From Arthrobacter sp. StoSoilB5 (GTDB taxonomy: Bacteria > Actinomycetota > Actinomycetes > Actinomycetales > Micrococcaceae): a stretch of 64,000 nucleotides of DNA. Every line of letters starts with the position of its first letter. Position 1 is the stretch's first letter. A program made the translations under genes and the position numbers. The DNA is taken from contig NZ_AP024646.1 in NCBI RefSeq assembly GCF_019977235.1, forward strand, positions 2,728,001 through 2,792,000. Direction: 5' to 3'. The notes below the pieces were generated by a model. It was given only the letters and a program-made list of their open reading frames with translations, did no database searches and was not told the origin of the DNA. This document shows, one piece after another, positions 2,343 through 40,423 of the stretch.

Positions 2343-2352
2343 GGTACCAAAA

Positions 2353-5902: not shown

Positions 5903-6778
5903 TCACGAGGCTACAACGTCTATGAAGAGATCGGCGAGGCGGCTTCGCCGCCACCGGGCGTGAATCATCCATAGAGGGGCCATGATGTCATCTGGGTCGA
6001 TGTCCACGGCCACGACTCCGGTGCGGGAGATGTTCGCATTCGAGGTCGACAGGAGGGCGATGCCTACGTTGGCGGCTGTGAGGGCCAGCTGCGTCTCCAG
6101 GCTCGTGGCGTATCCCTTAACCAATGGCTCGAAGCCCGCAGACCTGCAGGCAGAGACGATCAGGTCGTGGTACGAAGGGTTGTACTCACGCGGCAGGAAG
6201 ACCATCGGCTGCTCACGCAGGTCTACGAGTTTGAGGCTGGTGCGTGCAGCAAGGGGATGTTCCTCAGGCATGAATGCCTTGAATGATTCGTCAAGAAGAT
6301 GTGTGGACACAACCTTGTCGTCCATCGCAGCCGAGCGTACGAATCCGATGTCGATGTTCCCTGCTACCACTGCGCGCACTTGGGCCCCGGCATCCAGGAA
6401 ATGCTGAAGTTCCACCATGCACCCCGGTTCCTTCCCAAGAAGGCGACGGATAAGGTCCGGCACTGGGCCATTGGCGGCGGCGCCGAGACACCCGATCACC
6501 AGGCGGCCAAAAAGCCCGTCCCGTGCATCGAGCACGGTCTCCCGCGCACGCTCCGCCTCGGCAAGAGTTCGACGGCATGACTGGAGGAACAGCTCGCCGA
6601 TCTGCGTCAGACCGACGTCCCGGCTGGTCCGTGTAAGCAGTTGAACGTTCAGCTCGTCTTCGAGCTTGCGGATCTTCTGACTGAGCGCCGGTTGACTTAT
6701 TTCCAACTGCTGGGCGGCCCTTCCGAAGTGCAATTCATCGGCGAGTGTACGGAAGGCCAGCATGTCCTTTAGGTCCAT
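5903..6778 (-). CDS. LysR family transcriptional regulator
   Basis: A 291-residue LysR-type regulator of normal length. The N-terminal winged helix-turn-helix covers about residues 1-60 (AAQQLEISQPALSQKIRKLE). The rest is the two-lobed effector-binding domain. It is transcribed divergently from the ABC transporter / sulfatase run starting at 6963, the standard arrangement for a LysR protein controlling its neighbour. It is convergent with the amidohydrolase gene. The effector is not readable; by position it is probably the imported sulfate ester or a breakdown product. It could also affect the hydantoinase operon, but that promoter is 6 kb away. Confidence 0.92.
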   Translation of the reverse strand: MDLKDMLAFRTLADELHFGRAAQQLEISQPALSQKIRKLEDELNVQLLTRTSRDVGLTQIGELFLQSCRRTLAEAERARETVLDARDGLFGRLVIGCLGAAANGPVPDLIRRLLGKEPGCMVELQHFLDAGAQVRAVVAGNIDIGFVRSAAMDDKVVSTHLLDESFKAFMPEEHPLAARTSLKLVDLREQPMVFLPREYNPSYHDLIVSACRSAGFEPLVKGYATSLETQLALTAANVGIALLSTSNANISRTGVVAVDIDPDDIMAPLWMIHARWRRSRLADLFIDVVAS

Positions 6779-6962: not shown

Positions 6963-7844
6963 ATGTTGTGGACCAAGGAATTTGAAGCTCCTCAGCGGCG
7001 GGCCGTCACGGAGACTGGTCCTTCCCGCCCGGCTCCAGCGTCCCCATCTGCGGGTCGACACGTTGGGACCTGGTTCGTACGGTTTGGCCCAACTGTCGTC
7101 TTGATAGTCCTCGGCCTGCTGTTTTGGCAGTTCGTGCTCACCCGGGTCAATTTCTTGGGGATTCCTTCGAGGTACCTGGGTTCTCCCGGGGGGATCCTCG
7201 ATGCACTCGTCACGCTCGTACAGTCCGGCTACACCGGAACCCCGTTGTGGCAGCACTTCCTGGCAAGTATCAGCAGAACACTTTTCGGGGTGGGGCTGGC
7301 TACGGTCATCGGGGTGCCGCTGGGACTGGGTATCGGCCTCAACAGGTTCCTTGACCGGCTGGTTAGCCCGATCATCGGCTTCCTTCGGCCCATCCCGGCA
7401 CTTGCCTGGATTCCGATTGTCGTGATCTGGCTGGGGATCGGTGAACAGTCGAAGGTCTTCGTCATCTTCATGACGGCGGTGCTGTTCGTGTCGACGGGCG
7501 CGGCTCTTGGTGTTCGGGCAGTACCTCAGGATTTCTACCTTGTAGCCCGCAATTATGGACTAAGCCGGTTGCAGTTCCTGAGGCAAGTCGTGCTTCCACC
7601 GGCACTCCCGCAGATCCTTGCGGGGCTGCGAACGGCCCTGACTGTCGGTTGGGCGGTTGTGGTCGCGGCGGAGTTGATCGGCGCATCGCAGGGCCTCGGC
7701 TACATGATCCGTAACTCATCCCAGGTTTTCGACGTCAACACGGGCTACGTGGGGATTCTCCTTATCGGCGTGGTTGGCGTTGCCTTCGAGTACGGGTTCC
7801 GTTACTTCGAGAACCGGCTGTTGCATTGGCAGGTCTCCCGATGA
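6963..7844 (+). CDS. ABC transporter permease, NitT/TauT (SsuC/TauC-like)
   Basis: A membrane permease of about 293 residues with several hydrophobic segments (first near residues 45-65) and the family's EAA-type cytoplasmic loop (ARNYGLSRLQFLRQVVLPP, around residue 190). It matches the nitrate/sulfonate/taurine permease family, which imports small sulfonates, sulfate esters, nitrate and similar anions. I take the ATG at 6963 because GGAAAGAGG sits eight bases before it; an in-frame GTG at 6954 lies inside that site. The stop overlaps the ATPase start (ATGA). A sulfatase three genes later fits a sulfur-containing substrate. Confidence 0.9.
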   Translation: MLWTKEFEAPQRRAVTETGPSRPAPASPSAGRHVGTWFVRFGPTVVLIVLGLLFWQFVLTRVNFLGIPSRYLGSPGGILDALVTLVQSGYTGTPLWQHFLASISRTLFGVGLATVIGVPLGLGIGLNRFLDRLVSPIIGFLRPIPALAWIPIVVIWLGIGEQSKVFVIFMTAVLFVSTGAALGVRAVPQDFYLVARNYGLSRLQFLRQVVLPPALPQILAGLRTALTVGWAVVVAAELIGASQGLGYMIRNSSQVFDVNTGYVGILLIGVVGVAFEYGFRYFENRLLHWQVSR

Positions 7845-8746
7845 ACCAGAAGAACATCCTCTCGTCCCGACCCATCAGAGAGCAGACCATGAACGGCATG
7901 GAGAAAACGCCGGCCCGCGCGATCGGCGACACGAAGATCACCTTGGCCGGTGCAGCCCAGGCATACTCCGTTCGCGGAGGACGCCGGGAAGTACTCACCG
8001 GCCTTGACATCGAAATCAAGACAAACGAAAGCGTCGCTGTTATCGGACCGACCGGCGTCGGCAAGAGCACGCTGCTCCGTCTGATCGCAGGGTTTGAGAG
8101 TCCGACCAGTGGCGAAGTGAAGCTATGGAATGACGGCAGGAGCAGCCTCGCGGAGCCCGCGGCGGACATCGGGTACCTCTTCCAGCAACCGGCTTTGTTC
8201 CCCTGGATGACGGTAAAGGAGAACGTGCTGTTTGGGGCCAGGCACGCAAAGACGTACGGTGCCGATAAGCAGGCCATGTTCTCCCAAGCCGAGTACTTCA
8301 TGGACCGGGTCGGGCTTTCCGACGCGGCGGACCTCTTCCCCTATCAGATCTCAGGGGGAATGCGGGCCCGTACGGCTCTGGCAAGGGTCTTCCTCACCCG
8401 GCCGAAGGTGCTGCTCATGGACGAACCGTTTGGCGCGCTGGATGCCCTGACCCGTCGCGAGATGTACGTGCTCCTGCGCGATCTCGTGTCGACATCACCC
8501 GAGCTCACTACGGTCATGGTCACCCACGACGTCGACGAGGCCATCACTCTGTGCGGAACCATCATGATCATCTCGGGTATCCCGGGAACCATTACCTCGG
8601 TATATCGCAGCGGACTCGCAGCGATGGCGGAGTCGGCGGAGGACCTGCAGCGTGAGCCCGACTACGTCGAGCTCAAAGCAGCGCTCCTCAGGTCGCTCAA
8701 CGCGCGCCGGAATGAAACCAGAACAACCACCGGCACCACATCCTAG
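7841..8746 (+). CDS. ABC transporter ATP-binding protein, NitT/TauT (SsuB/TauB-like)
   Basis: An ABC ATPase of about 301 residues that powers the importer. Order of motifs: Walker A GPTGVGKST (near residue 68), Q-loop LFQQPALFPW (near 112), signature SGGMRARTALAR (near 170), Walker B LLMDEPFGALDAL (near 190) and H-loop MVTHDVDEA (near 226). The ATG at 7841 overlaps the permease stop by four bases (ATGA). An upstream in-frame TTG at 7826 has no advantage. About 30 residues precede the usual domain start; an inner ATG at 7889 is an alternative. Confidence 0.92.
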   Translation: MNQKNILSSRPIREQTMNGMEKTPARAIGDTKITLAGAAQAYSVRGGRREVLTGLDIEIKTNESVAVIGPTGVGKSTLLRLIAGFESPTSGEVKLWNDGRSSLAEPAADIGYLFQQPALFPWMTVKENVLFGARHAKTYGADKQAMFSQAEYFMDRVGLSDAADLFPYQISGGMRARTALARVFLTRPKVLLMDEPFGALDALTRREMYVLLRDLVSTSPELTTVMVTHDVDEAITLCGTIMIISGIPGTITSVYRSGLAAMAESAEDLQREPDYVELKAALLRSLNARRNETRTTTGTTS

Positions 8747-8788
8747 CCAAACCCATAAACATCAATTACGAATCAACGGAGATCGAAA

Positions 8789-9826
8789 ATGTCTACCTTT
8801 CGTCTGCGTCGGTATGCCACTGCCCTGGCGGCGGCCCTGACGCTGGTCCTCGGACTTTCAGCTTGTTCTTCCGCCGGTTCCTCCGGCGGAAGAGGGGGCG
8901 AGACGCCCACCATCCGGGTTGCCTACGCACAGGGCCTGCAAGCCAACTTCTACTATGCCCTCCAGCATGATCTCTTCGCGAAGCACGGAGTCAAGGTTGA
9001 AGGCACGAAGTTTGATTCCGGGCCTGCCCTTATCTCCGCCCTGGTGGGCGGCAGCGCAGATGTGGGCTACTTCGGAGTTCCTGCCATGGCTACAGCCAAC
9101 GAGCAGGGCGCACAGCTCCAGGTCTTCAGCATCGCAAACAACGCCGGAGATATGGCTGCCCTATATGTGAAGCCGGACAGCGACATCAAATCCATTCAGG
9201 ATCTTCGAGGCAAGAAGGTGGCGACCACCCAGAACACAGTGGCGCACATCTTCCTGCTGATCGCCCTGGAAAAAGCGGGCATGACTCCCAAGGATGTTCA
9301 GATTGAGTTCTACGATCCGGCTGGCCTCGTGGCCGGCTTCGACCGCGGGGACCTTAACGCCGTGTTCATGTTCGCCTCGGTCGGCGCCAAGTTCCTGTCC
9401 AGCGGAGCAAAGATCGTGAAAGGCACGATGTCGACCGAGCTCGGCGTCCCGGATACCGGCAACTTCATCGCGTCGAAGGACTATATCAACGGCAACAAGG
9501 CTGCCTTGCAGAAGTTCCTTGCGGCCGTGGACGAGGCGACTCCCATCGTCAATCAGGACAAGGCGACCTACATCGAGGCGCTCCAGAAGGGCATCGGCCT
9601 TGCCGGCGATCAGGCCCAGATCATCTACGACAACCAGCCATCGCCTTGCCTGGTCTCTTCCACGCTTGCTGACCCTGGTTCGCCCGTTTCTCTGACGCCG
9701 GGCGCCGGCTTCACGAAGATAACCCAAAAGATGGTCGAAACGATGACCAAACTCGGCATTCTCAAGTCCGCTCCGAACGTCGCCGACTTCGTCACATCCT
9801 CCGTCGTGGAAGGTATGGGCAAATGA
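8789..9826 (+). CDS. ABC transporter substrate-binding lipoprotein, NitT/TauT (SsuA-like)
   Basis: A 345-residue extracytoplasmic binding protein. It has a lipoprotein signal peptide: basic start MSTFRLRRY, hydrophobic core, and lipobox LSAC with the lipidated cysteine near residue 26. The mature part is of the NMT1/SsuA type (IRVAYAQGLQANFYYALQH, then GGSADVGYFG), as in binding proteins for sulfonates, taurine and related compounds. It follows the ATPase by 42 bases, with a GGAGATCG ribosome site. Its four-base overlap with the sulfatase gene ties uptake directly to sulfate-ester cleavage. Confidence 0.92.
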   Translation: MSTFRLRRYATALAAALTLVLGLSACSSAGSSGGRGGETPTIRVAYAQGLQANFYYALQHDLFAKHGVKVEGTKFDSGPALISALVGGSADVGYFGVPAMATANEQGAQLQVFSIANNAGDMAALYVKPDSDIKSIQDLRGKKVATTQNTVAHIFLLIALEKAGMTPKDVQIEFYDPAGLVAGFDRGDLNAVFMFASVGAKFLSSGAKIVKGTMSTELGVPDTGNFIASKDYINGNKAALQKFLAAVDEATPIVNQDKATYIEALQKGIGLAGDQAQIIYDNQPSPCLVSSTLADPGSPVSLTPGAGFTKITQKMVETMTKLGILKSAPNVADFVTSSVVEGMGK

Positions 9827-11091
9827 CACAACCATCACATGCCCGGCCAAATGTAGTGATCGTCATCTGCGACGACCTCGGCTACGGTGACCTCTCTTGC
9901 AATGGCGGTACAGTCATCGGCACACCCCGGCTCGACGAGCTTGCAGCAGACGGAGTGCGTGCCACGGCCATGTATAGCGGGGGCCCCACATGTTCACCTT
10001 CCCGGGCGGCGCTGCTTACGGGCCGGGTGGCACCGCGCACTGGAGTAGGCAGGGTGCTCTTCCCGGACGAGGATACGGGTCTCCATAAGGACGAGATGAC
10101 CATCGCGTCCTACCTGTCCAGAGCCGGTTATGCCACCGGAGCATTCGGCAAATGGCATGTGGGACAGATGCCCGCAAGGGGTCCGCTTCGTTTCGGCTTT
10201 GATCATTACTTCGGCCTGCCGTTCAGTAATGACACGCCACCATACTTCCTGTATCGAAATGAGGAAGTGCTCGAGGACGGCCCGGAGATGTCGTCACTGA
10301 CTCGCCGCTATGTCGAAGAAGCCATCGAGTTCATTGACAACGTTCCCGAGGGACAGCCGTTTTTCACATATGTCGCCTTCACCACTCCGCACTACCCCTT
10401 GGAGCCGGACCCCGAGTTTGAGGGCAGGTCTGCGGGCGGTCCCTACGGGGACACTGTTGAGAGCATCGATCATCATGTCGGAGTGCTACGCGACGCCCTT
10501 GAGGAGCGAGGCATTCTCGAGGACACGATCTTCGTGTTCACCGCTGACCATGGCCCATGGTTCGAGGGGTCAACGGGCGGTATGCGAGGACGAAAGTTCG
10601 AGACGTGGGAAGGGGGTACGCGTGTCCCGTTCCTGGCGTCGTGGCCAAGGCAGCTTCCACGGTCAGTGGTTGTGGACGCGCCTCTGGCGTCGGTTGACCT
10701 ACTGCCGACCATTTGCCATTACCTTGGGCTGGATCCCGACGGAAAGCCAGTGGATGGCCAGATCATTGCGGATGCCCTTGAGGGCAGGGAAGCCTCCGAA
10801 CACGACCCCATCTGGTATTTCGACGGATATGAACTGAACGCGGTCCGCAAAGGCAAGTGGAAGCTGCACCGTCGTCGACAGACTTGGGGAGCGGAGCGAT
10901 TCGCCACCATGTCCCTGCCACAACTGTTCGATATCGAGGCTGATGCCGGCGAGTCCTATGACCTCAGCAGGAGGCATCCCGACGTCGTCGTCGAGCTTAG
11001 CCGCCTCATGGACCAGCAGGAGGGAACCATCGACAGGTCCCATGACGATGGACGCCTTTGGTGGCTCGAAGGCAATGTCGACGCCCGATGA
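9823..11091 (+). CDS. Cys-type sulfatase, cytoplasmic
   Basis: A 422-residue type I sulfatase that cleaves a sulfate ester to alcohol and sulfate. The modification site C57-S-P-S-R (GGPTCSPSRAALLTGR) is intact; Cys57 would be converted to formylglycine. Metal-binding residues appear as ICDDLGYGD near 16-23 and FTADHGPW near 240, and the active-site GKWHVG near 110. There is no signal peptide, so it should act in the cytoplasm after import. It overlaps the binding-protein gene by four bases. A formylglycine-generating enzyme is encoded three genes downstream. At 422 residues it is shorter than many arylsulfatases but keeps the C-terminal subdomain. Substrate unknown. Confidence 0.93.
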   Translation: MTQPSHARPNVVIVICDDLGYGDLSCNGGTVIGTPRLDELAADGVRATAMYSGGPTCSPSRAALLTGRVAPRTGVGRVLFPDEDTGLHKDEMTIASYLSRAGYATGAFGKWHVGQMPARGPLRFGFDHYFGLPFSNDTPPYFLYRNEEVLEDGPEMSSLTRRYVEEAIEFIDNVPEGQPFFTYVAFTTPHYPLEPDPEFEGRSAGGPYGDTVESIDHHVGVLRDALEERGILEDTIFVFTADHGPWFEGSTGGMRGRKFETWEGGTRVPFLASWPRQLPRSVVVDAPLASVDLLPTICHYLGLDPDGKPVDGQIIADALEGREASEHDPIWYFDGYELNAVRKGKWKLHRRRQTWGAERFATMSLPQLFDIEADAGESYDLSRRHPDVVVELSRLMDQQEGTIDRSHDDGRLWWLEGNVDAR

Positions 11092-11120
11092 ACGGAAACT
11101 TTCAAGAAAGGACTAAAACC

Positions 11121-11939
11121 ATGTATGCGTACCAGGTAAATGCCTGGGGTGACGTTGTGGGCACCCCGGGAGCGGTCACTGATGTGGCTTCCGGACACTA
11201 TTTCACGCCAGGAGATTTGGACCCCACACTCGAAGCGATAGCAACAGCAGGGTTTCCCGGCATCGAAATCTTCGACGGCAACCTGTTGGCCTTGGGTGAC
11301 GATGCGCAATCGTTCGGACGCCGCTTGGAAACCCATGGCCTTGCTCTGGCTGGTGTCTATTCCGGCGGCCACTTCATCTATCCAGACGCACACGAGGAGG
11401 AATACCTGCGTTTCGAGCGCTCCATCAAGGTTGCCGCTTCCTTGGGTGCCCGCCACTTCGTTATTGGGGGAGGTGGAGTGAGGACCCGTGGTCGGCTCGA
11501 TTCGGACTACCGGGTTATGGCGGAGTTGCTGGAGCGTGTAGCTGAAAGCGCGACGGCGGAGGGCCTCATCCCCAGCTACCACCCCCATCTGGGCAGCCTC
11601 GCTGAAAACCCGGAGCAGATTGATGCCCTCCTTGCGGCCTCATCCATTGGCCTCTGCGCCGACGTCGCCCATCTCGCCGCCGGTGGTGGCGATCCGATCA
11701 GGATCATCGACCGCTACGCAGACCGGCTCACCTATGTCCATCTCAAGAACTACGTCGCAGCTTCGGGCACGTTTGTCCCTCTGGCGGATGGGGATCTCGA
11801 CATTCGTGCCATCCTCGCTGCGATAACAACCCGGGGTTACTCCGACTGGATCGGAGTGGAACTCGACGGCTACCCGGGTGATCCGGGCGCTGCAGCTGCC
11901 GAAAATTTCAAATTCCTTCAGGAGGCTACCAATGCGTGA
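11121..11939 (+). CDS. Sugar phosphate isomerase/epimerase-like TIM barrel protein
   Basis: A protein of about 272 residues of the xylose-isomerase-like TIM-barrel (AP endonuclease family 2 / IolE-IolI) group. Likely metal ligands are visible: IEIFDGN near residue 50, SYHPHLG near 155, LCADVAHLAAGG near 180, TYVHLKNY near 205 and GVELDGY near 250. I place the start at ATG 11121 after AAGAAAGGA; the longer frame lacks a ribosome site. Family members isomerise, epimerise or dehydrate keto-sugars and inosose. It overlaps the next dehydrogenase gene by eight bases, suggesting consecutive steps. Confidence 0.85.
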   Translation: MYAYQVNAWGDVVGTPGAVTDVASGHYFTPGDLDPTLEAIATAGFPGIEIFDGNLLALGDDAQSFGRRLETHGLALAGVYSGGHFIYPDAHEEEYLRFERSIKVAASLGARHFVIGGGGVRTRGRLDSDYRVMAELLERVAESATAEGLIPSYHPHLGSLAENPEQIDALLAASSIGLCADVAHLAAGGGDPIRIIDRYADRLTYVHLKNYVAASGTFVPLADGDLDIRAILAAITTRGYSDWIGVELDGYPGDPGAAAAENFKFLQEATNA

Positions 11940-13122
11940 TGTAAATATCGCACTCATCGGCGGAGGCTTCATGGGCAAAGCCCATTCTCTGGCCTACGCC
12001 GCGATGCCAATGTTCTTCTGGCCGGCCCCGGCCCGCCCCATTCGAAAGGTGGTGGTCGACGCGACTGACGAACTGGCCCGGACCGCGGCCGATCGCTACG
12101 GCTGGGAGCGGCACTCCTCGTCCTGGCAGGAGATCGTTGAAGATCCAACCATTGACGTCGTCGACATCGCAACGCCCAATCATCTCCACGCGGAAATCGC
12201 AATTGCCGCCGCGAACGCGGGCAAGCACGTCATCTGCGAGAAGCCCTTGGCACCAACGGTAGACGAAGCACGGCTCATGCTCGAAGCAGTCGAAAGGGCC
12301 GGAGTGGTCAATGCCGTCGCCTTCAACTATCGGCGAACTCCTGCCGTGGTGCTGGCTAGGAAGTACATCGAGAACGGAGAGATTGGTGACATCCTCAACT
12401 TCCGCGGTACGTACTTGCAGGATTGGAGTGCGGACCCCAACTCACCCCTCAGTTGGCGTTTCCAGAAAAAGATCGCAGGTTCAGGTGCCATCGGCGACAT
12501 CGGCTCGCATGTCGTTGACCTCGCACGTTATCTCGTCGGAGAAATTGCCGAGGTAAATTCCGTAGTCTCGACCTGGATCAAGGAGCGTCCGCTGCAAAGT
12601 GGCGGTTTCGACTCCCTCGGCACCGCCAAGGTCTCCTCGGGACCACGCGGGACCGTGGACGTCGATGATGAGGCCGTGACTCTGGTCAGGTTCACCAATG
12701 GCGCAGTAGGGTCGCTGGAAGCCACGCGGAATGCCTGGGGCAGGAACAATTTCTTGACGTTTGAGATCCACGGCACCCGTGGCTCCCTGGTATTCAACTA
12801 CGAGCGCCGGGACGAACTCCAAGTCGCCTTCGCGGATGATCCTGCAGACCGGCGAGGCTTCCGGACCGTGTACACCGGGCCGGCCACGCCATACGGCGAA
12901 GCGCTCTGGCCCATTCCCGCACTGGGCATCGGATACGGCGAGACCAAGATCATCGAGGCCTACGAACTCATGAAGGCCGTGGAAACGGGAGAACGGATTC
13001 GGCCGGACTTCGCCGACGGCTACCAAGCGGCACTCGTCGATGAAGCGATCGCGACATCAGGAGCCACGCACGAGTGGGTAAAGGTGGAACCCGTGCAAAC
13101 GCGAGCCCACGCCCAGCGGTGA
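11932..13122 (+). CDS. Gfo/Idh/MocA family oxidoreductase
   Basis: A dehydrogenase of about 396 residues that oxidises or reduces a sugar or inositol hydroxyl with NAD(P). The N-terminal Rossmann motif is ALIGGGFMGKAHS, and the family's EKPLAPT follows near residue 103. The C-terminal domain contains SGAIGDIGSHVVDLARYL with the catalytic-region histidine. The ATG at 11932 lies behind a strong AGGAGG and overlaps the preceding stop. A second family member occurs at 16167 in the same run, sharing GFMGKAHS-like and GAxGDIxSH motifs. It may form the oxidised intermediate used by the TIM-barrel proteins. Confidence 0.9.
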   Translation: MRDVNIALIGGGFMGKAHSLAYAAMPMFFWPAPARPIRKVVVDATDELARTAADRYGWERHSSSWQEIVEDPTIDVVDIATPNHLHAEIAIAAANAGKHVICEKPLAPTVDEARLMLEAVERAGVVNAVAFNYRRTPAVVLARKYIENGEIGDILNFRGTYLQDWSADPNSPLSWRFQKKIAGSGAIGDIGSHVVDLARYLVGEIAEVNSVVSTWIKERPLQSGGFDSLGTAKVSSGPRGTVDVDDEAVTLVRFTNGAVGSLEATRNAWGRNNFLTFEIHGTRGSLVFNYERRDELQVAFADDPADRRGFRTVYTGPATPYGEALWPIPALGIGYGETKIIEAYELMKAVETGERIRPDFADGYQAALVDEAIATSGATHEWVKVEPVQTRAHAQR

Positions 13123-13149
13123 CGGGGGAAAGTAAGAAATAGGAGAAGC

Positions 13150-14106
13150 ATGATGGTCGGCTGCTGTTCCACATCCATCAGGCCGGGAAGTGACAACAAG
13201 AAGCGTCCCGTGGTTCAGGACGAGAATCGAAGTCCTCGGCCCTGCCTGTCAGTGAATGACGAAGTGCTGCTTTCGGGAGGAGTGTTCTCCATGGGCGACG
13301 TATTCGATGAGGGATACGCCGCCGACGGCGAGACACCGGTTCACAGCGTGCGGCTGGACGCCTTCCGAATCGACGCGACAGCGGTCACCAACAGCATGTT
13401 CGCCTGCTTTGTAAAGGAAACCGGTTATCGGACTGAGGCCGAGCAGTACGGCTCCTCCGCTGTCTTCCATCTGCTCGTCCGTGCCACGGGGCGGGATATC
13501 GTCGGCACCGCGGCGGGAGCGCCATGGTGGTTCAACGTTCGCGGTGCCGATTGGGCCCATCCTTTCGGCCCGGATTCCCACTGGTCCGAGAGCCCGGATC
13601 ATCCGGTCGTGCAGGTTTCCCACTTCGATGCCCTGGCCTATTGCGTCTGGGCCGGTCGGCGGCTACCCACGGAGGCGGAGTGGGAATACGCCGCCCGCGG
13701 GGGACTCGAAGGCAAGCGATACGCCTGGGGTGACGAGCTCACCCCAGGCGGGGAGCACCACTGCAACATCTGGCAAGGCGTCTTTCCCGGAGCAAACACC
13801 AGCGAAGACGGATATCTTGGAACCTCGCCGGTGAAGACCTTCCCCGCCAACGGCTACGGGCTCTACGAAATGGCCGGCAACGTCTGGGAATGGTGCGCCG
13901 ACTGGTTCTTGCCCAAGTACTACCGCCAGTCACCCATGGACAATCCGCAGGGGCCCACGATCGGTGCCGGACGCGTCATGCGCGGAGGCTCCTACCTCTG
14001 CCATGACTCCTACTGCAACCGCTACCGCGTCGCTGCACGCACCTTCAACACGCCCGATTCCTCCAGCGGCAACTGCGGCTTCCGGACCGTTAGGAACGCG
14101 TCATAA
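13150..14106 (+). CDS. Formylglycine-generating enzyme (sulfatase-modifying factor)
   Basis: A 318-residue FGE-sulfatase family protein that converts the sulfatase cysteine to C-alpha-formylglycine using oxygen. Family features are SGGVFSMGDVFDEGYAADG near residue 40, the signature WCADWF after MAGNVWEW, and the active-site pair Cys284 and Cys289 in SYLCHDSYCNRYRVAAR. This matches catalytic FGEs rather than EgtB-like or kinase-linked relatives. It starts at ATG 13150 after AGGAGA. No signal peptide is visible, consistent with activating the cytoplasmic sulfatase encoded 2 kb upstream. Linked sulfatase plus FGE strongly supports a working sulfatase system. Confidence 0.92.
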   Translation: MMVGCCSTSIRPGSDNKKRPVVQDENRSPRPCLSVNDEVLLSGGVFSMGDVFDEGYAADGETPVHSVRLDAFRIDATAVTNSMFACFVKETGYRTEAEQYGSSAVFHLLVRATGRDIVGTAAGAPWWFNVRGADWAHPFGPDSHWSESPDHPVVQVSHFDALAYCVWAGRRLPTEAEWEYAARGGLEGKRYAWGDELTPGGEHHCNIWQGVFPGANTSEDGYLGTSPVKTFPANGYGLYEMAGNVWEWCADWFLPKYYRQSPMDNPQGPTIGAGRVMRGGSYLCHDSYCNRYRVAARTFNTPDSSSGNCGFRTVRNAS

Positions 14107-14158
14107 TCCGGCGAAGCGTTCATCAGCATCATCGAATAAGGAACATGGAGAATTGAGA

Positions 14159-15187
14159 ATGAAAGCAGTCATCCTTCCCGGTGACGAGCGAGTCATCGTG
14201 GAAGAGCGGAAAATCCCTGACCTCGGCCCGCATGACGTATTGGTTCGCACCCGCGCGTCGGCCATTTGCCGCAGCGACATGAGCCTCTACCATGGCAGCC
14301 CGATTGTCGGTGGTGAAGGCGCCCGAGAAGGATCCGTGATCCCGGGACACGAAGCCGCGGGCGAAGTCGTCCGCATCGGCGATTCCGTCACCCAGGTAAA
14401 GGAAGGTGATCGCGTAGCGGGGTACCTCGCTCTGGGCTGCAACTTCTGCGAATACTGCCTCAGCGGCTACATGATGCTATGCAAGCAGTGGAAGTGTTTG
14501 GGATTCGATGTCGACGGCGGCGACGCCGACTACTTCGTCCTGCCTGAACGGAACTGCTTACATCTTCCCGATGAGCTCTCCTTCCGAGCAGGAGCAGTCA
14601 TGACCGACATGCTCGGCAGCCAGTACCACGTACAAAAGCAACTTGGAGTTGCAGGCGGTAAGACCGTCGCCGTCTTCGGCATGGGTCCAATGGGATTGGC
14701 CGCGGTACTTGTTGGGAGGGCGTTCGGCGCCCGTATCATCGCCGTCGATGTCATTGCCGACCGTCTGGAACAGGCTAGCCGGCTCGGGGCAGATGTCGTC
14801 ATCAACAGCGCGGCCGACGACGCCCTCCAGCGGGTCCTTGAGCTCACCCAAGGCCGTGGTGCCGAGATCTGCATCGATTGCTCCGGCAATCCGGCCGGGC
14901 AAAACTCTGCCCTGGATGCTGCGGCGAAGCTAGGAGCCGTCGCCTTCGTCGGAGAATCCCGAGCAACGGAAATCAACCCAAGCGAGCAGATCATACGCAA
15001 GCTTCTCACCGTCGTCGGGGGCTGGTACTTCCCTGCAGGTGACTGGGAAGGAATCGTTCGCCTTGTCCTTGATCACAAGGTCCCGGTTGAAAAGCTCATC
15101 AGCCACGAATTCTCCATCGACCAGGCAGAAGAAGCCTTCCAAGCCTTCGATCGTCGCGAAACCGAAAAAGCCCTCTTTATCTGGTAG
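14159..15187 (+). CDS. Zinc-dependent alcohol dehydrogenase (MDR family)
   Basis: A medium-chain dehydrogenase of about 342 residues. The catalytic zinc region is seen as SAICRSDMSLYHG and PGHEAAGEV. The structural zinc cysteines are in GCNFCEYCLSGYMMLC (C-x2-C-x2-C-x7-C). The nucleotide-binding turn is GMGPMG near residue 180. I place the start at ATG 14159; sequence upstream belongs to the FGE gene in another frame. It probably oxidises an alcohol of the desulfated product or an intermediate. It lies 52 bases after the FGE gene and 34 before the next TIM-barrel gene. Confidence 0.9.
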   Translation: MKAVILPGDERVIVEERKIPDLGPHDVLVRTRASAICRSDMSLYHGSPIVGGEGAREGSVIPGHEAAGEVVRIGDSVTQVKEGDRVAGYLALGCNFCEYCLSGYMMLCKQWKCLGFDVDGGDADYFVLPERNCLHLPDELSFRAGAVMTDMLGSQYHVQKQLGVAGGKTVAVFGMGPMGLAAVLVGRAFGARIIAVDVIADRLEQASRLGADVVINSAADDALQRVLELTQGRGAEICIDCSGNPAGQNSALDAAAKLGAVAFVGESRATEINPSEQIIRKLLTVVGGWYFPAGDWEGIVRLVLDHKVPVEKLISHEFSIDQAEEAFQAFDRRETEKALFIW

Positions 15188-15221
15188 TCCCAAGAAATCA
15201 GTTTCTTCGAAAGAAAAGTCT

Positions 15222-16082
15222 ATGTTCAGATATGCTGCCGAACTGGTCCCCTTCCACGATTACGACTTGGAGGATTCGCTCCGCGTCCTCGCTGACATCG
15301 GCTTCAAAGAAGTCAACCTTTGGTCGTCAGCGGCACCGCTGGCCCATCACGTCAACCCCGGCGACGACCCGGGCACCATCCGTGGATTGCTCAATAAATA
15401 CAGACTCACCCCGTGCGGACTGACCGTCTACGGCAAGACCCAAGACGAAATCCTGGAACGCGTCGATTTCGCCGCCGACCTGGGCATCGACACCCTGATC
15501 TTTGACTGTGAGGCGAACTATTCCGATTTCGTCTCCACCTTCCTGCCTCCAATCGTTGAGGCTGGAGCCCGCAGGGGTGTGCGGATAGCCGTTGAGAACC
15601 ATCTCACGATGCCTTTCTCTGAGGACTTCGAATCCGGCGCCAATGAAGACAATCGGTGGCACGAAGGCGTAGACACCCTGGCCCAGATGAAGCGACTGAT
15701 CCGCGACATCGACCACCCCTACCTTGGAGTATGCATTGCACCCCCGCACCTATGGGTTATGCAGGAGACCATCAGCGAGGCCATCACCTTCCTCGCCGAG
15801 CGCAAACGGCTCTTCTATTACTACATCTGGGATATAGACCGGGCCTACCGTCACGGCAGGGACGGACTCAACTTCGGCCCCGCTGAACAACAACTTCCCC
15901 GCTCCGATGGGACGCTGGACCACTACGTCATGCTGGGCACTCTGCGCCGTGTCGGATATGAAGGCGTGGCTAGCCTTAAATGCCACGGAACGGGGGGCTG
16001 GAGTTTTGAAAAGATCAGCAAACACCTCCGCGCCTCCGACGCTTACATCAAAGAATGCATGAAACGAGATTCAGCGCCCTGA
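15222..16082 (+). CDS. Sugar phosphate isomerase/epimerase-like TIM barrel protein
   Basis: A protein of about 286 residues, the second TIM-barrel member in the run. Opening strand FRYAAELVPFHDYDLED, then VNLWSS near residue 32, the probable metal ligand glutamate in RIAVENHLTMPF near 128, and GVCIAPPHLWV near 172. The start is ATG 15222; the preceding sequence is the end of the dehydrogenase. Compared with the 11121 gene it is clearly a different subfamily, so a different step is likely. It could be an isomerase, epimerase or lyase on a keto-sugar; the sequence alone does not decide. Confidence 0.82.
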   Translation: MFRYAAELVPFHDYDLEDSLRVLADIGFKEVNLWSSAAPLAHHVNPGDDPGTIRGLLNKYRLTPCGLTVYGKTQDEILERVDFAADLGIDTLIFDCEANYSDFVSTFLPPIVEAGARRGVRIAVENHLTMPFSEDFESGANEDNRWHEGVDTLAQMKRLIRDIDHPYLGVCIAPPHLWVMQETISEAITFLAERKRLFYYYIWDIDRAYRHGRDGLNFGPAEQQLPRSDGTLDHYVMLGTLRRVGYEGVASLKCHGTGGWSFEKISKHLRASDAYIKECMKRDSAP

Positions 16083-16166
16083 TTACGACCATCGGAGGCC
16101 ACCAAGCACGGAGTCCATCCCAAACAAACTCTTACCAGCAGCAAACCCCAGGCAGGAGAAACAGCA

Positions 16167-17327
16167 GTGAAAGACAAACGGCTCGGCATAGCGGCTATCG
16201 GCTACGCCTTCATGGGGAAGGCCCATTCGAATGCGTGGCGGAACGTGGCCAGTTTCTTCGATGTCCCGGCCTTCGAGCAGAAAGTGCTCGTGGGCCGGGA
16301 CGCCACCCAGGTAGCCGAGGCCGCAGCCAAGTACGGCTGGGCAGAGTCCGCCACCGACTGGCGCTCCGTAATTGAACGCGACGACATCGACATCGTGGAC
16401 ATCTGCGCCCCGGGGTGGATGCACGCCGAAATCGCCATCGCCGCGCTCGAAGCCGGCAAGCACGTGCTGGTGGAGAAGCCGCTGGCGAACACTCTGGGTG
16501 AGGCGGAGCTGATGACAGCGGCTGCTGCCAGGGCCCGCGCCAAGGGGGTGCAGTCGATGATCGGTTTCAACTACCGTCGCGTTCCTGCCCTGGCTCTGGC
16601 CCGGGAGCTCATTGCCGAGGGCCGGCTCGGCACTATCCGGCACGTGCGCGCCGCGTACTTGCAGGACTGGCTCTCCGACGCCGAGTCCCCGATGAGTTGG
16701 CGGCTCCGGAAGGAAACGGCCGGTTCCGGTGCCCTCGGCGACATCGCTTCCCACGCCATCGACCAAATCCAGTACCTGACCGGGCAGACCATCCTCGAGG
16801 CATCGGGGGTGCTGAAAACGTTCGTGTCTCAGCGGCCCGGTCCGGGCGGTTTAGAAAACGTCACTGTGGACGACGCGGTATGGGCAACGTTCTGGCTTAC
16901 CGGTGACATGGGCGCCTCGGTCGAAGCATCCCGCGTCGCGACCGGCCAGAAGAACAGCCTTTCGATCGAGGTCTACGGCACCGCAGGTTCCCTGACGTTC
17001 GACCTGGAAAACCTGAACGAACTGAACTTCCTGGACGCGACCGCACCTGTCCGTGAGCAGGGTTTCCGCCGGATCCTGGTCAATGAACCCGAACACCCCT
17101 ATATGGAAGCGTGGTGGCCGCAGGGTCACATCATCGGCTGGGAACACACCTTCACGCACCAGATCCGGGACTTCCTTTTGGCCGTCCAGACCAGGGAGGC
17201 GCCGTCACCGTCGTTCGAAGACGGGCTGCAGGTCCAACGTGTCCTGGATGCTGTGGAAGCCTCAGCCAAGAACAAAAGCATCATTACCGCCGTCGAGCAC
17301 AAGTCACTCATCACTGAAGGAGCCTGA
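16167..17327 (+). CDS. Gfo/Idh/MocA family oxidoreductase
   Basis: A 386-residue NAD(P)-dependent dehydrogenase. Rossmann motif AAIGYAFMGKAHSNAW at the start, VEKPLAN near residue 103, and the substrate-domain motif SGALGDIASHAIDQIQYL near 190. The start is GTG 16167 behind GCAGGAGA. It resembles the 11932 product along its length, including the LQDW and SWR segments, and may be an older duplicate. It is followed after one base by a third TIM-barrel gene, a pairing found for enzymes that make and then process 3-keto-sugars or inososes. Confidence 0.9.
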   Translation: MKDKRLGIAAIGYAFMGKAHSNAWRNVASFFDVPAFEQKVLVGRDATQVAEAAAKYGWAESATDWRSVIERDDIDIVDICAPGWMHAEIAIAALEAGKHVLVEKPLANTLGEAELMTAAAARARAKGVQSMIGFNYRRVPALALARELIAEGRLGTIRHVRAAYLQDWLSDAESPMSWRLRKETAGSGALGDIASHAIDQIQYLTGQTILEASGVLKTFVSQRPGPGGLENVTVDDAVWATFWLTGDMGASVEASRVATGQKNSLSIEVYGTAGSLTFDLENLNELNFLDATAPVREQGFRRILVNEPEHPYMEAWWPQGHIIGWEHTFTHQIRDFLLAVQTREAPSPSFEDGLQVQRVLDAVEASAKNKSIITAVEHKSLITEGA

Positions 17328-17328
17328 C

Positions 17329-18330
17329 ATGCCCCGCCCGTACACCCTGTTCACCGGCCAGTGGGCCGACCTCCCTTTCGAGGAAGTCGCGCGCCTAGCC
17401 TCGGGCTGGGGCTACGACGGCCTGGAAATCGCCGTCTCCGGAGACCACCTGGACGCCTGGCGCTGGGACGAACCCGGCTACATCGAGTCCAAACTCGCCG
17501 TCCTGGAAAAGTACAACCTGAAGGTCTGGGCCATCTCCAACCACCTCAAAGGCCAAGCCGTCTGCGATGACCCCATCGACTTCCGCCACGAAGCCATCGT
17601 CGGCTCCCGCGTGTGGGGCGACGGGGAGCCCGAAGGCGTCCGCCAACGCGCCGCCGAAGAAATGAAACACACCGCCCGCCTCGCCCGCGCCCTGGGTGTG
17701 GACACTGTGGTCGGGTTCACCGGCTCCTCCATCTGGCAGTACGTGGCCATGTTCCCGCCCGTCCCCGAAAAAGTCATCGACGCCGGCTACCAGGACTTCG
17801 CCGACCGGTGGAACCCCATCCTGGACGTCTTCGACGAATGCGGTGTCCGCTTCGCCCACGAAGTCCACCCCAGTGAGATCGCCTACGACTACTGGACCAC
17901 CGTCCGGACCCTCGAAGCGATCGGCCACCGGCCAGCGTTCGGCCTGAACTGGGACCCCTCCCACTTCATGTGGCAGGGCATCGATCCCGTGTCCTTCATC
18001 TGGGACTTCAAGGACCGGATCTACCACGTGGACTGCAAGGACACCAAGCTCCGCCCCACCGGCCGGAACACCGTCATGGGCTCCCACCTGCCGTGGGGCG
18101 ACCCGCGCCGCGGCTGGGACTTCGTCTCCGCCGGACGCGGCGACGTGCCCTGGGAATCATCCTTCCGCGCCCTCACCGCGATCGGCTACAACGGACCCAT
18201 CAGCGTGGAATGGGAAGACGCCGGCATGGACCGCCTCCACGGCGCCCCCGAAGCCCTCGCCGCCCTCAAGAAGTTCGACTTCCCCGCATCCCAAACCAGC
18301 TTCGACGCAGCCTTCAGCAGCAAGGACTGA
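17329..18330 (+). CDS. Sugar phosphate isomerase/epimerase-like TIM barrel protein, conserved actinobacterial type
   Basis: A TIM-barrel protein of about 333 residues, longer than the other two in the run. Likely metal and active-site residues lie in FAHEVHPSEIAYDY (near 182), LNWDPSHFMWQG (near 207), YHVDCKDTKL (near 235) and ISVEWEDAGMD (near 288). The start is ATG 17329, one base after the preceding stop, with GAAGGAG upstream. The gene is visibly more GC-rich at third positions than its neighbours. It closely resembles a group commonly paired with Gfo/Idh dehydrogenases. Possible roles include isomerisation of a keto-sugar or cleavage of a 3-keto-glycoside; neither is proven. Confidence 0.87.
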   Translation: MPRPYTLFTGQWADLPFEEVARLASGWGYDGLEIAVSGDHLDAWRWDEPGYIESKLAVLEKYNLKVWAISNHLKGQAVCDDPIDFRHEAIVGSRVWGDGEPEGVRQRAAEEMKHTARLARALGVDTVVGFTGSSIWQYVAMFPPVPEKVIDAGYQDFADRWNPILDVFDECGVRFAHEVHPSEIAYDYWTTVRTLEAIGHRPAFGLNWDPSHFMWQGIDPVSFIWDFKDRIYHVDCKDTKLRPTGRNTVMGSHLPWGDPRRGWDFVSAGRGDVPWESSFRALTAIGYNGPISVEWEDAGMDRLHGAPEALAALKKFDFPASQTSFDAAFSSKD

Positions 18331-18489: not shown

Positions 18490-19620
18490 TTGCCAGCCGA
18501 CCTTTACCTACCTTTGGGCCATGCCGAGTGGTCAGCGCGGTACGAATCACTTGCTCCGCTAGTCGTTGGGTCAAGCGCCATAGCTCCACTCACGATGGGG
18601 GAGCTGACCACCATCGCCCGCATCGACCCAGACCCCCTTCTGGCCACAGGGCTCAGCCTCGATTACACGGCACTTGGCGGCTCGGTGGAGCTCCGTCAAC
18701 GAATCGCCGCCATAATGCCTGGCGTCATCTCAGATAACATCACCGTCACCGTTGGAGCCGGCGAAGCGCTGGCCATGGTCGCCGAAGCGGCCTGCCTTCC
18801 TGGCGCCCATGTTGTTATCGAAACTCCGGCTCCCCGAAGTGCCCTTATGGCAGCACAAAGACTAGGCGCGTCCGTCACCTTGCTCCAGGGCCCGATCACT
18901 TGGGAATTGGTCGTTAGCAGCTTACGTCCAACCACAAGGGCCGTTTTCCTGACTTCCCCGCACAGCCCGACCGGTCAAGTACTGGGTGCTGACGCCCTGA
19001 CCCGGATCGCAGCGGAGTTGGCTAAGGTCGACGCGCTCCTTGTTGTTGATGAGAGCTATCGAGGACTGCCCCTGGGAATGTCACAGGTCCCTCCAGCCGT
19101 TGCCGCCCTCGTCCCCAACGGTGTATCTATAGGTAGCCTCTCCAAGGTATACGGACTTCCTGGGTTGCGCCTCGGGTGGGTAGCAGGCCCCGCCCTGTTG
19201 GTCGATGACGTGAAATCCATGCAGCGCTGGACTTCGCGGTCTCCGGCAGCCACCAGCGAAGTGATCGCCACGATCGCCTTGGACAACAGCGAGGCTCTTC
19301 TCTCCCGCGCCCGATCAATCGTGTACGACAGCTACGCCGAACTGGCCGCCATCTGCGACAGGTCACCGCTAATGCAGCTGACGGCGCCGGACGGAGGGAC
19401 TACCGCCTTCCCGCAGATTGATGTTGCTGATGTGGATGCATGGTGTGGACGGGTCGCAGAGCAGTACGGGGTCCTGTTAGCGCCTGGCAACGCATGCTTC
19501 GGAATCCCGGGCCGGATCCGCATCAACCTGGGCTTACGGCCGGAGGTGAGGGCGAAGGCCTTTCCAGTTCTCGCTCAAGCCCTTAAGGGAACCCCACGCT
19601 CCGGCGTTAGGAGCCGCTGA
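18490..19620 (+). CDS. Class I/II aminotransferase-fold PLP enzyme, paralog A
   Basis: A 376-residue fold-type I PLP protein. The PLP lysine is in GSLSKVYGLPGLRLGW near residue 218, and the cofactor aspartate/tyrosine in LLVVDESYRGL near 178. The carboxylate-binding arginine is probably in GRIRINLGLRPE near the C-terminus. The usual NPTG cofactor motif reads HSPTG here, with serine replacing the asparagine. I use a TTG start at 18490 after AAGGGGA; a near-identical TTG arrangement occurs in the paralog at 30740. The two proteins are very similar over their whole length. It lies 159 bases after the sulfatase run and may use its own promoter. Amino donor and acceptor unknown. Confidence 0.88.
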   Translation: MPADLYLPLGHAEWSARYESLAPLVVGSSAIAPLTMGELTTIARIDPDPLLATGLSLDYTALGGSVELRQRIAAIMPGVISDNITVTVGAGEALAMVAEAACLPGAHVVIETPAPRSALMAAQRLGASVTLLQGPITWELVVSSLRPTTRAVFLTSPHSPTGQVLGADALTRIAAELAKVDALLVVDESYRGLPLGMSQVPPAVAALVPNGVSIGSLSKVYGLPGLRLGWVAGPALLVDDVKSMQRWTSRSPAATSEVIATIALDNSEALLSRARSIVYDSYAELAAICDRSPLMQLTAPDGGTTAFPQIDVADVDAWCGRVAEQYGVLLAPGNACFGIPGRIRINLGLRPEVRAKAFPVLAQALKGTPRSGVRSR

Positions 19621-19724
19621 GGTTTGACCCAAGAGGAGTCTGCTTGTCCCAGGAGCGCAGGGCTGGTATGAATCCGGTACATGCAATGCCCGGAATTTCG
19701 GCGTGGCGGTGATAGCCTTGGTGC

Positions 19725-20753
19725 ATGGATGGGACGACGCAGCAGGGCCTGACTGACGAGCTTCCCGTCTCTGGAGCCTTGACGGCTGTGGATTCGGCGA
19801 TAGTCACTGATGTAGCGAAGAGGGTGGACGTCTCAGACCGCCGCGATCTGCGCCGGCGTCTGGCTGATGGCCTCGAAGAGTGGCTATTGGAACATCGCGC
19901 GCCCCATCAACTGCTTCCTTCAGCGCGGCACTTCTCGGACGCATGGGGCGTTCATCGGGCCACCGTTCAGGGGGCCTTCGAAATCCTGGTCGACAGGGGA
20001 ACCCTCGCCAGAATTGCTAATGGGCGCTTTGTCGCAAACTTCGTGGCCACAGTTCGAGAAGATGGAGCAGCAGCCCTTGCCGGGCGCCTAAGGACGACGG
20101 CCGGCCTGGCTGTCCGCGATGGGCTTTCCGAATCCGCATTCATCGAATTGGCACGGCAAATGTTCCGCGCCGCGGCTATGGCGGACATACGCGTCGTCTT
20201 TGTTGAACCCGAGGTCGAGGTTCCGGGCATGGGTGCCGAGGATCTTTCCCGCCTTCTCGACTATCCGGTTTCCAGCGAACGCCTTGAGGCCATCGAGCCC
20301 GCCCCACGAACGGTGTTCGTCGCGTTGGCGTCCGATGCCACCAAGGCCCGAGCCAGGATGGCCGGCCGCGCAGACGTCTTTGCCATCGGCCTGACACTAG
20401 AGACCGACCTCCGGCTTGCGGTGGCCGGCCTTCCCTCGGAGACAAGTGTGGCAGTTGTCTCGGAGGACCAACGGGTTTTGAGGGCCGTGATGGACAAGGT
20501 CTCAGAACTGCGATCGGACCTTTCCATCCATAGCCATACGGAAATACCACGGGAGCTCGGAGATACATCGCTCCTGCTCCTGCCCGAGGCGATGGTGGCC
20601 GACACCGGCAATCTCCCGACGGCCCGCTACCGGTGCCAAATCTCCCTTGCGGAGCTCACTTTCCTGCGGTCCCGGCTTGCAGGTTCGCTGGGGCAAGCGG
20701 CAACAGCCGAGACCACGACTGACCACACGAAGATCGAACTGCCTGCACAGTGA
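19725..20753 (+). CDS. GntR-like transcriptional regulator with unknown sensor domain
   Basis: A 342-residue regulator. Residues about 45-105 form a GntR-type winged helix (LLPSARHFSDAWGVHRATVQ, then a wing around RGTLARIANGRFV). The C-terminal 230 residues look like an alpha/beta sensor domain that I do not recognise; it is neither an aminotransferase (MocR) nor an FCD domain. It sits between aminotransferase paralog A and the convergent flavin oxidoreductase gene, and is the only regulator between 18.5 and 31.9 kb. It may therefore control the aminotransferase and sugar ABC genes. No clear Shine-Dalgarno precedes ATG 19725. Confidence 0.75.
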   Translation: MDGTTQQGLTDELPVSGALTAVDSAIVTDVAKRVDVSDRRDLRRRLADGLEEWLLEHRAPHQLLPSARHFSDAWGVHRATVQGAFEILVDRGTLARIANGRFVANFVATVREDGAAALAGRLRTTAGLAVRDGLSESAFIELARQMFRAAAMADIRVVFVEPEVEVPGMGAEDLSRLLDYPVSSERLEAIEPAPRTVFVALASDATKARARMAGRADVFAIGLTLETDLRLAVAGLPSETSVAVVSEDQRVLRAVMDKVSELRSDLSIHSHTEIPRELGDTSLLLLPEAMVADTGNLPTARYRCQISLAELTFLRSRLAGSLGQAATAETTTDHTKIELPAQ

Positions 20754-24209: not shown

Positions 24210-24270
24210 TGCCTGCTGATTCGTTCGCATAGGCGTAGATAGATGGCCGATGCAGTGGAATCAGCAGGCA
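24210..24270. repeat. Inverted repeat upstream of the sugar-binding protein gene
   Basis: Perfect 13-base arms, TGCCTGCTGATTC (24210-24222) and GAATCAGCAGGCA (24258-24270), with 35 bases between. It lies between the epimerase stop and the binding-protein start. It could be an RNA hairpin that ends or protects transcripts, or a regulator site. Confidence 0.45.
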
Positions 24271-24366
24271 CCCGGACACCTGCGGCAGGGTCCGTCGCTT
24301 TCCTGCGCCGCCGCCCTCAGGGCTCCCCTCCACCTTTGCCATCCATTCGCTAGGAGCACATTCAGA

Positions 24367-25554: not shown

Positions 25555-25562
25555 GAGGCTCG

Positions 25563-25605
25563 GGCGGGTTTCCGGATGCCTTTTGGGGGCCTCCGGACAC
25601 CCGCC
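25563..25605 (+). terminator. Intra-operon stem-loop after the binding-protein gene
   Basis: GGCGGGT plus TTCCGGA (25563-25576) pair with TCCGGA plus CACCCGCC (25592-25605) around a T/G-rich loop, eight bases after the stop. Such hairpins after binding-protein genes raise their mRNA level relative to the ATPase and permease. It is probably partial termination or 3' protection. Confidence 0.55.
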
Positions 25606-25654
25606 GGAACTTTCGAACCTACCCACACAACAGTTCCCAAAGGGGTGAACACGG

Positions 25655-27220: not shown

Positions 27221-27222
27221 CC

Positions 27223-28209: not shown

Positions 28210-28262
28210 GCGCTCCTCCGCAATCCGCTGCAATACCAAACCCATGCACTTAAGGAGTAATC

Positions 28263-30346: not shown

Positions 30347-30437
30347 GTTCCGGCCGTCCCGGGGCGCGGGGGAAGGGACAGCGAAGACGCCAGCCGGGCC
30401 GGCATACCCGGCCGGGGAGAGCAGAGGGGCCGGGCGA

Positions 30438-30701
30438 ATGAATCAGGAACAGTGCCAGGCTTGCCGGGCACCGGTCTGGTACGCCCAGCATGAACTCACG
30501 AGGAAGACAGTGAGGCTGGACCGTGATCCGAAACCGGGCGGCACCTACGTCGTCGTTAGGGATATGCAGGGACGTCTGGTGGTGCGGAGCGTCTACGGTC
30601 ATTCGGCAACCGGGGATGCCCAGCACTTGTTCACCGCGCATTCCTGCGGCGCCGGGTCGGGCACAGGCAGCTTCGAACACTTCGTGGTCCTGCCGGATTG
30701 A
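30438..30701 (+). CDS. Small zinc-ribbon-like protein
   Basis: An 87-residue protein with an N-terminal C-x2-C (QCQACRAPVWYA) and a later TAHSCG that could give two more ligands, with a variable middle (VRLDRDPKPGGTYVV). It resembles small Cys/His proteins common in actinobacteria and their phages. Start ATG 30438 after a GGGGCCGGGC stretch. It lies between the PEP-hydrolase-like gene and aminotransferase paralog B and shows no clear link to either. Possibly nucleic-acid binding; function unknown. Confidence 0.6.
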   Translation: MNQEQCQACRAPVWYAQHELTRKTVRLDRDPKPGGTYVVVRDMQGRLVVRSVYGHSATGDAQHLFTAHSCGAGSGTGSFEHFVVLPD

Positions 30702-30739
30702 AACCGGGATCCAAGGAGCCCAAATCAAAGGGGATTGAA

Positions 30740-33504: not shown

Positions 33505-33535
33505 GTTTGAACTCCTTCGTTCTGTGTTGAATGCG

Positions 33536-40373: not shown

Positions 40374-40423
40374 GAGTTTTCCTCGCGTTTCGATGAGTGC
40401 TTTTGGTCGGGCATGTCGAGCGA

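Follow-up and report, generated by a model that had tools for sequence, protein, structure and literature searches.

Bacteria can open glycosides without hydrolysis by a published route of oxidation, elimination, hydration and reduction that uses LgdA, LgdB1, a ketoglucal hydratase and a Gfo/Idh reductase (PMC7676230, PMC10066097 and PMC10628242). Here we analyse eleven genes at positions 6963–18330 of a 64,000-nucleotide stretch of Arthrobacter sp. StoSoilB5 (contig NZ_AP024646.1, positions 2,728,001 to 2,792,000; the whole stretch is called the window). Judged from their sequences, four sugar genes of this cluster fit the published route, and the view of the initial annotation, which knew of no named pathway with such genes, is not supported. 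The same cluster encodes a Cys-type sulfatase, a formylglycine-generating enzyme (FGE) and an ATP-binding cassette (ABC) importer of the NitT/TauT type, and we put the chances at about even that a levoglucosan-type (lgd) pathway for non-hydrolytic glycoside cleavage has here been adapted to a substrate carrying sulfate. The sugar-enzyme core is known; its combination with sulfatase, FGE and a NitT/TauT-type importer was not met in our literature searches. No description of a sulfatase within an lgd operon was found among the titles and abstract openings listed in searches of the open-licence literature, and the available part of PMC10066097 contains no word beginning 'sulf'.

The initial annotation had described eleven same-strand genes beside a divergent LysR gene, and both this arrangement and the Pfam families were confirmed (BPD_transp_1, ABC_tran, NMT1-type, Sulfatase, three AP_endonuc_2, two Gfo/Idh/MocA, FGE-sulfatase and zinc alcohol dehydrogenase). 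The open reading frames are as follows, with the starts of TIM-A (11121), LgdA (11932), ADH (14159), TIM-B (15222) and TIM-C (17329) being probable ones judged from the translations:

5903–6778, − strand: divergent LysR-type regulator (PF03466 and PF00126; top NCBIfam model AlsR, 208 bits against a cut-off of 430)
6963–7844, + strand: ABC permease, NitT/TauT type (PF00528; TauC and SsuC models match below cut-off)
7841–8746, + strand: ABC ATPase (PF00005)
8789–9826, + strand: substrate-binding lipoprotein, SsuA/TauA-like (NMT1, PF09084)
9823–11091, + strand: Cys-type sulfatase, probably cytoplasmic (PF00884, 6e-61)
11121–11939, + strand: TIM-A, assigned by position and residues as an LgdB1-type 3-keto-glucoside beta-eliminase
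11932–13122, + strand: LgdA, levoglucosan-dehydrogenase family (NF052479)
13150–14106, + strand: FGE (PF03781, 2e-83)
14159–15187, + strand: zinc-dependent alcohol dehydrogenase, ADH (PF08240 and PF00107)
15222–16082, + strand: TIM-B, xylose-isomerase-like barrel (PF01261)
16167–17327, + strand: gfo2, Gfo/Idh/MocA enzyme by family, candidate 3-ketoglucose reductase (NF052479 below cut-off)
17329–18330, + strand: TIM-C (gene timC), 2-hydroxy-3-keto-glucal hydratase-like by PDB matches

LgdA passes the NCBI levoglucosan-dehydrogenase equivalog NF052479 (713.6 bits, cut-off 650) and matches PDB 6a3f at E 1.9e-194, an entry with the same sequence as 6a3i, the levoglucosan dehydrogenase (LGDH) of Pseudarthrobacter phenanthrenivorans (PMC10066097). 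Glu103 and His193, the proposed catalytic residues of the LgdA of strain LG01 (PMC10066097), are found at identical numbers in the window protein. Sequence matches to TIM-A are weak and IolE-like only, and its assignment as an LgdB1-type beta-eliminase draws on its position beside lgdA and on its residues: His154, His156, Asp181, His207 and Glu247 are invariant in 27 TIM-A/LgdB1 rows (27 of 28, the over-long L126 being left out). Matched by eye, this set (His-Pro-His, Asp, His, Glu) is the same in kind and near in spacing to that of the beta-eliminase AtOGE, in which His132, Asp163, His189 and, weakly, Glu233 are metal ligands and His134 is catalytic (PMC10628242). TIM-C resembles a hydratase-type TIM barrel of the LgdB2/LgdB3 or AtHYD kind, with E 2.7e-37 against the solved hydratase AtHYD (PDB 8ro4) and 4.9e-167 against SCO6571 (PDB 2zds). 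Its neighbour gfo2 reaches 334 bits on NF052479, below the cut-off of 650, matches PDB 4h3v at E 1e-138 and is an uncertain candidate for the 3-ketoglucose reductase equivalent to LgdC.

These assignments bear on the substrate class proposed earlier, a small sulfated polyol or sugar that is imported, desulfated inside the cell, oxidised and isomerised. Import, an intracellular Cys-type sulfatase, FGE and Gfo/Idh oxidation survive as the most economical account. We consider a sulfated inositol or other polyol as the substrate very improbable: TIM-A and TIM-C are weakly IolE-like and ADH scores 193 bits on IolM (cut-off 450), but no iol model comes near its cut-off, unlike the LgdA model, and the gene order is like that of lgd operons. 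The myo-inositol pathway as such was rejected (IolE 88.2 and 41.6 bits of 290; IolG 131.1 and 114.5 of 355), as was a sulfonate pathway, for which the eleven genes include no desulfonating oxygenase.

NCBIfam matches below cut-off place the importer in the sulfonate/taurine group. Its binding protein has a lipoprotein-like N terminus, and the sulfatase is without an obvious signal peptide (both judged by eye). The sulfatase motif CSPSRAALLTGR starts at Cys57 (CSPSR, of the C-x-P-x-R type), and the structural model of the protein lies nearest human arylsulfatase A, followed by S1_19 carrageenan sulfatases. FGE is canonical in its fold (PF03781), its matches to PDB 6muj and 2q17 (E ~1e-130) and its active-site pair Cys284/Cys289 within LCHDSYCNRYR. 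A sugar-type importer is the usual companion of lgd genes and no part of their chemistry; there are no sugar ABC genes among the eleven. This absence, the kind of importer present and the intact motifs of sulfatase and FGE make a plain levoglucosan operon, with sulfatase and FGE as passengers and the importer carrying an uncharged sugar, improbable in our estimate, even though the LgdA family score and the operon core would suit it. A second FGE gene elsewhere in the genome is 64% identical to that of the window, and besides the sulfatase gene of the window there are four more, so that Cys-type motifs are present in five sulfatase genes (two of six rows were taken as one gene on account of a common 595-residue frame), so that the earlier claim of a sulfatase activator proper to this pathway was overstated. 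Pseudomonas has its own sulfate-ester system, AtsRBC/AtsA, of which no description turned up in our literature searches.

On the reading of a sulfated substrate entering an lgd-type route, the NitT/TauT-type importer would bring in a glucoside or anhydroglucose as its anionic sulfate ester, and the sulfatase, carrying at Cys57 a formylglycine installed by the window FGE or the second FGE of the genome, would strip the sulfate in the cytoplasm. LgdA would then oxidise the freed sugar at C3, TIM-A would break the C1 bond by beta-elimination to give 2-hydroxy-3-keto-glucal, TIM-C would hydrate this to 3-ketoglucose, and gfo2 may reduce the product to glucose; ADH and TIM-B could form an optional second pair of oxidation enzyme and TIM barrel, one that elsewhere accompanies the same hydratase. 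Desulfation first appears to fit better than desulfation last, because LgdA is conserved and the characterised enzymes related to it use an anhydrosugar without substituents. The sulfate might instead sit on the aglycone of a glycoside such as a glucosinolate, with oxidation and elimination freeing the sugar before or after a sulfatase acts on the aglycone side. The eliminase AtOGE does cut 3-keto glucosides with large aglycones (PMC10628242), and glucosinolate-acting sulfatases are on record in insects (PMC8212129); however, LgdA is closest to the enzyme of a small anhydrosugar and no aglycone-breakdown gene was recognised among the eleven, and we judge this arrangement unlikely.

The spacing of the genes suggests a single transcript. 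Of the 'several' four-base overlaps reported earlier, two hold (both ATGA, at 7841–7844 between permease and ATPase and at 9823–9826 between binding protein and sulfatase); the remaining overlap, at the TIM-A/LgdA junction, is eight bases long (11932–11939), and the widest gap within the cluster is 84 bases (16083–16166). The FGE and sulfatase genes are placed inside the run, interleaved with the lgd genes, and not at its edge. A scan for promoters and terminators did no better than shuffled sequence (3 where shuffles averaged 3.2, and 9 where they averaged 10.3). The G+C content of the region, taken in 2-kb steps, is an unremarkable 0.59–0.63.

LgdA and TIM-A travel together in other genomes. 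Of 198 other relatives, 30 have an LgdA homologue at E ≤ 1e-150 (69–73% identity), and a TIM-A homologue (40–44%) lies beside lgdA in all 29 short loci of other genomes (two further LgdA matches came without a locus) and in 19 of 20 longer stretches, the LG stretches, the exception being the second locus of genome G064. timC is present in six of these 20. The order in genome G063 (TIM-A homologue, lgdA, gfo2 at 83%, timC at 98%) equals the window core minus FGE, ADH and TIM-B; the combination with sulfatase and FGE was not recovered among the relatives examined. Stretches of the plasmids Arthrobacter agilis pAAG24-80, Deinococcus gobiensis P2 and Agrobacterium tumefaciens pAtCFBP6626a carry TIM-barrel, Gfo/Idh and sugar ABC genes. 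In Metabacillus dongyingensis pBY2G20 the surroundings of lgdA include several TIM barrels and a zinc alcohol dehydrogenase; binding proteins are present, but the stretch has neither ATPase nor permease. A further stretch, from Shinella, is unannotated.

In the trees of LgdA (29 rows) and TIM-A (28 rows) alike, the window falls together with three genomes from a single other family of the order (support 100/100 in each) and away from the LG loci found in its own genus; both trees come with a long-branch warning, and the window is among the long branches. Because named TIM-A relatives at 60–67% are mostly Microbacterium, this family is probably Microbacteriaceae. The three sister loci hold TIM-A (60–63%), LgdA (77–80%), TIM-C (71–74%) and ATPase-like matches adjoining lgdA, and resemble in layout the annotated sugar-importer operon of a named plasmid. 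TIM-A homologues are otherwise rare, being found in 2 of 244 other genomes of a family sample (E ≤ 1e-70; both 43–44%), 2 of 296 others in an order sample (E ≤ 1e-80) and 3 of 209 in a second family that overlaps the order sample (E ≤ 1e-85). The closest database TIM-A, at 92%, is that of Paenarthrobacter sp. YIM B13468, and close named relatives of the window proteins belong to Paenarthrobacter (TIM-A) and Arthrobacter (TIM-B).

The hydratase gene has a far broader distribution, with timC in 89 of 118 other relatives at E ≤ 1e-100 and four timC matches in the window genome, three of them at 98–100%. Two further copies in this genome (2198627–2199625 and 685712–686710; 98–99%) lie near sugar-type (SBP_bac_1) importer genes, and both adjoin a gfo2 of 80–87%. 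In a sample selected for timC, gfo2 is its neighbour in 12 of 13 stretches, but the same holds for one of six timC-bearing LG stretches, and in another sample three of four timC stretches have a different Gfo/Idh gene in place of gfo2. Given this differing occurrence among relatives, the importer, the sulfatase and the TIM-A/LgdA branch look acquired, and gfo2 and timC look like common stock of the genus.

TIM-B has no match among PDB sequences up to E 1 and none among viral contigs; its predicted fold is nearest Art22 and SCO6571. Its family keeps Glu125-Asn-His127, and the usual Asp, His and Glu of the later strands are seemingly replaced (Ala173, Asp204 and Lys253 or thereabouts, from visual inspection of the alignment and the predicted strands), so the metal site is possibly altered. 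TIM-B occurs in 4 of 118 other relatives and ADH adjoins it in all four. In three of them ADH is 83–84% and TIM-B 87–88% identical and timC adjoins; in the fourth (ADH 67%, TIM-B 76%) a gfo2–timC pair lies ~5 kb away. One of the four loci (L196) has importer genes of the sugar type by Pfam, and plasmids pSI-1 and pP27867_2 carry an annotated dehydrogenase beside TIM-B together with sugar-importer genes. Because ADH/TIM-B pairs elsewhere accompany timC and sugar-importer genes, TIM-B probably serves the same kind of glycoside chemistry.

The sulfatase has few close relatives. Among 198 other relatives it gave five matches (E ≤ 1e-60; 39–44% identity), and in a class sample it matched 12 of 393 other genomes (E ≤ 1e-100; 48–50%), whose short flanks yielded only sulfatase matches. 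A search of 120 Microbacteriaceae at E ≤ 1e-120, made without a positive control, found none. All 770 plasmid records were below 60% identity, and viral contigs gave 8 loci at 25–33%; a search of 94 other genomes at E ≤ 1e-40 found no counterpart of the binding protein, all 608 of whose plasmid records were likewise below 60%. Scanning GTDB with a sulfatase alignment returned at least 583 relatives, of which 80 were kept (top identity 45%), and no lgd-like cluster at 120 bits or more lay around them. Single matches at these 80 loci were FGE (L026, L042 and L057), gfo2 (L025) and timC (L033), with weaker lgdA-like (30%; L050) and adh-like (30%; L073) matches. L026, L042 and L057 come from other phyla, and their FGE genes, 50–61% identical to that of the window, lie within ~2 kb of the sulfatase; pairing of FGE and sulfatase is thus not unusual in itself.

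Metagenome clusters add a weak hint of co-location. Among the 120 sulfatase matches listed, one cluster is 99% identical, two are 79–80%, one is 72% and the rest are at most 68%. When the 30 closest of these were compared with the 120 listed TIM-B clusters, three pairs had longest contigs of equal size (9966, 4466 and 4690), against a mean of 0.15 and a maximum of 2 in 600 shifted controls; source labels agree for 9966 only. The same comparison with TIM-A clusters gave no equal-sized longest contigs.

Several observations weigh against an lgd-type route dedicated to a sulfated substrate. Among the genomes examined, sulfatase, FGE and lgd genes come together in one only, and TIM-A/LgdA and ADH/TIM-B each occur elsewhere without a sulfatase match: none was found in the four ADH/TIM-B relatives or at the three tree-sister loci, and Paenarthrobacter sp. 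YIM B13468 is absent from the 120 sulfatase matches listed, so that it may be without such a sulfatase. Because the two halves occur apart elsewhere, the link between sulfatase and lgd genes rests on one locus and one consistent size coincidence. The window LgdA is only 69–73% identical to the versions in relatives, and the binding protein, at 152.6 bits, falls just short of the cut-off of the SsuA-family model TIGR01728 (163.5). The role of gfo2 as LgdC is uncertain because another Gfo/Idh gene (33–39% identical to LgdA) stands ahead of the TIM-A homologue in 12 of 20 LG stretches and gfo2 is present in one, that of G063. The separate occurrence of the module parts would also suit sulfur scavenging, in which importer, sulfatase and FGE would free the sulfate of organosulfates, with the lgd genes as mere neighbours that handle levoglucosan or plain glucosides; soil bacteria do release sulfur from sulfate esters, some under sulfate limitation (PMC4267179). 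Scavenging would, however, leave the lgd genes with no sugar importer among the eleven, and FGE and sulfatase are interleaved with them and do not form one block, which makes it rather unlikely in our view.

If the pathway does act on a sulfated substrate, a more specific form of that reading can be proposed tentatively: a dedicated route for sulfated glucosides or anhydrosugars in which desulfation is coupled to redox cleavage, with a sulfonate-type importer, two interchangeable front pairs (LgdA/TIM-A and ADH/TIM-B) and one hydratase–reductase pair. Levoglucosan-like sugars esterified with sulfate and glycosides resembling glucosinolates would be among its candidate substrates. If so, redox opening of glycosides would be organized as exchangeable front ends on a common back end, one front being aimed at sulfated sugars, and one would predict an actinobacterium for which a single sulfated glucoside is the source of carbon and of sulfur alike. 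In soil, sulfate esters make up a major part of the organic sulfur (PMC4267179).

The genome that contains the window is a single contig of 5.30 Mb; no tRNA gene and no Rfam family at gathering score was found in the window. Upstream of the cluster, 291–4026 holds hydantoinase/oxoprolinase A and B genes. Because their 93–94% homologues in relative G051 adjoin a Gfo–timC–TIM-B–ADH module (L197), there is a hint that a similar module stood at this site before the sulfatase genes. The cluster is followed at 18490–20753 by a gene of the aminotransferase fold, which scores below cut-off on the GntC and capreomycidine synthase models, and by one that is weakly GntR-like. At 24250–31885, sugar-type ABC genes precede UPF0261, a PEP-hydrolase-like protein and an aminotransferase; together they may form another catabolic operon. 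The genes at 32368–35962 (citrate-synthase, PEP-mutase/isocitrate-lyase-type and MmgE/PrpD) resemble a methylcitrate cycle set, and hydroxyisobutyrate-dehydrogenase-like, acyl-CoA synthetase, enoyl-CoA hydratase-like, aldehyde dehydrogenase and LysR genes at 39417–46043 resemble those of valine breakdown.

Of the described systems, the LgdA–LgdB1–LgdB2–LgdC pathway of Bacillus smithii S-2701M, and of Paenarthrobacter LG01/LG02 with LgdB3, shares with the window an LgdA-family enzyme, an adjoining LgdB1-type barrel, a hydratase-type barrel and a second Gfo/Idh gene. Unlike those operons, the window has a NitT/TauT-type importer in place of a sugar ABC importer and adds a sulfatase, FGE, ADH and a third TIM barrel, and its proteins diverge from the lgd versions of relatives (LgdA 69–73% and TIM-A 40–44% identical). 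The same chemistry would be expected from the 3-keto-glucoside pathway of Agrobacterium tumefaciens (GlycDH, AtOGE, AtHYD and Gfo), given that TIM-A has the residue set of AtOGE and TIM-C matches AtHYD; the first dehydrogenase of the window is instead of the LgdA type, and the available part of the A. tumefaciens description mentions no sulfatase, FGE or NitT/TauT importer (PMC10628242). SsuABC/TauABC and the Asf sulfonate systems have the same kind of importer, and asf also combines a LysR regulator with an ABC importer (PMC4267179), but these systems cut C–S bonds by oxygenases, whereas the window encodes an O-sulfate hydrolase. Finally, the sulfatase and the FGE are like other aerobic FGE/Cys-type sulfatase pairs in their canonical Cys pair and C-x-P-x-R motif, and only their placement inside an lgd operon is unusual.

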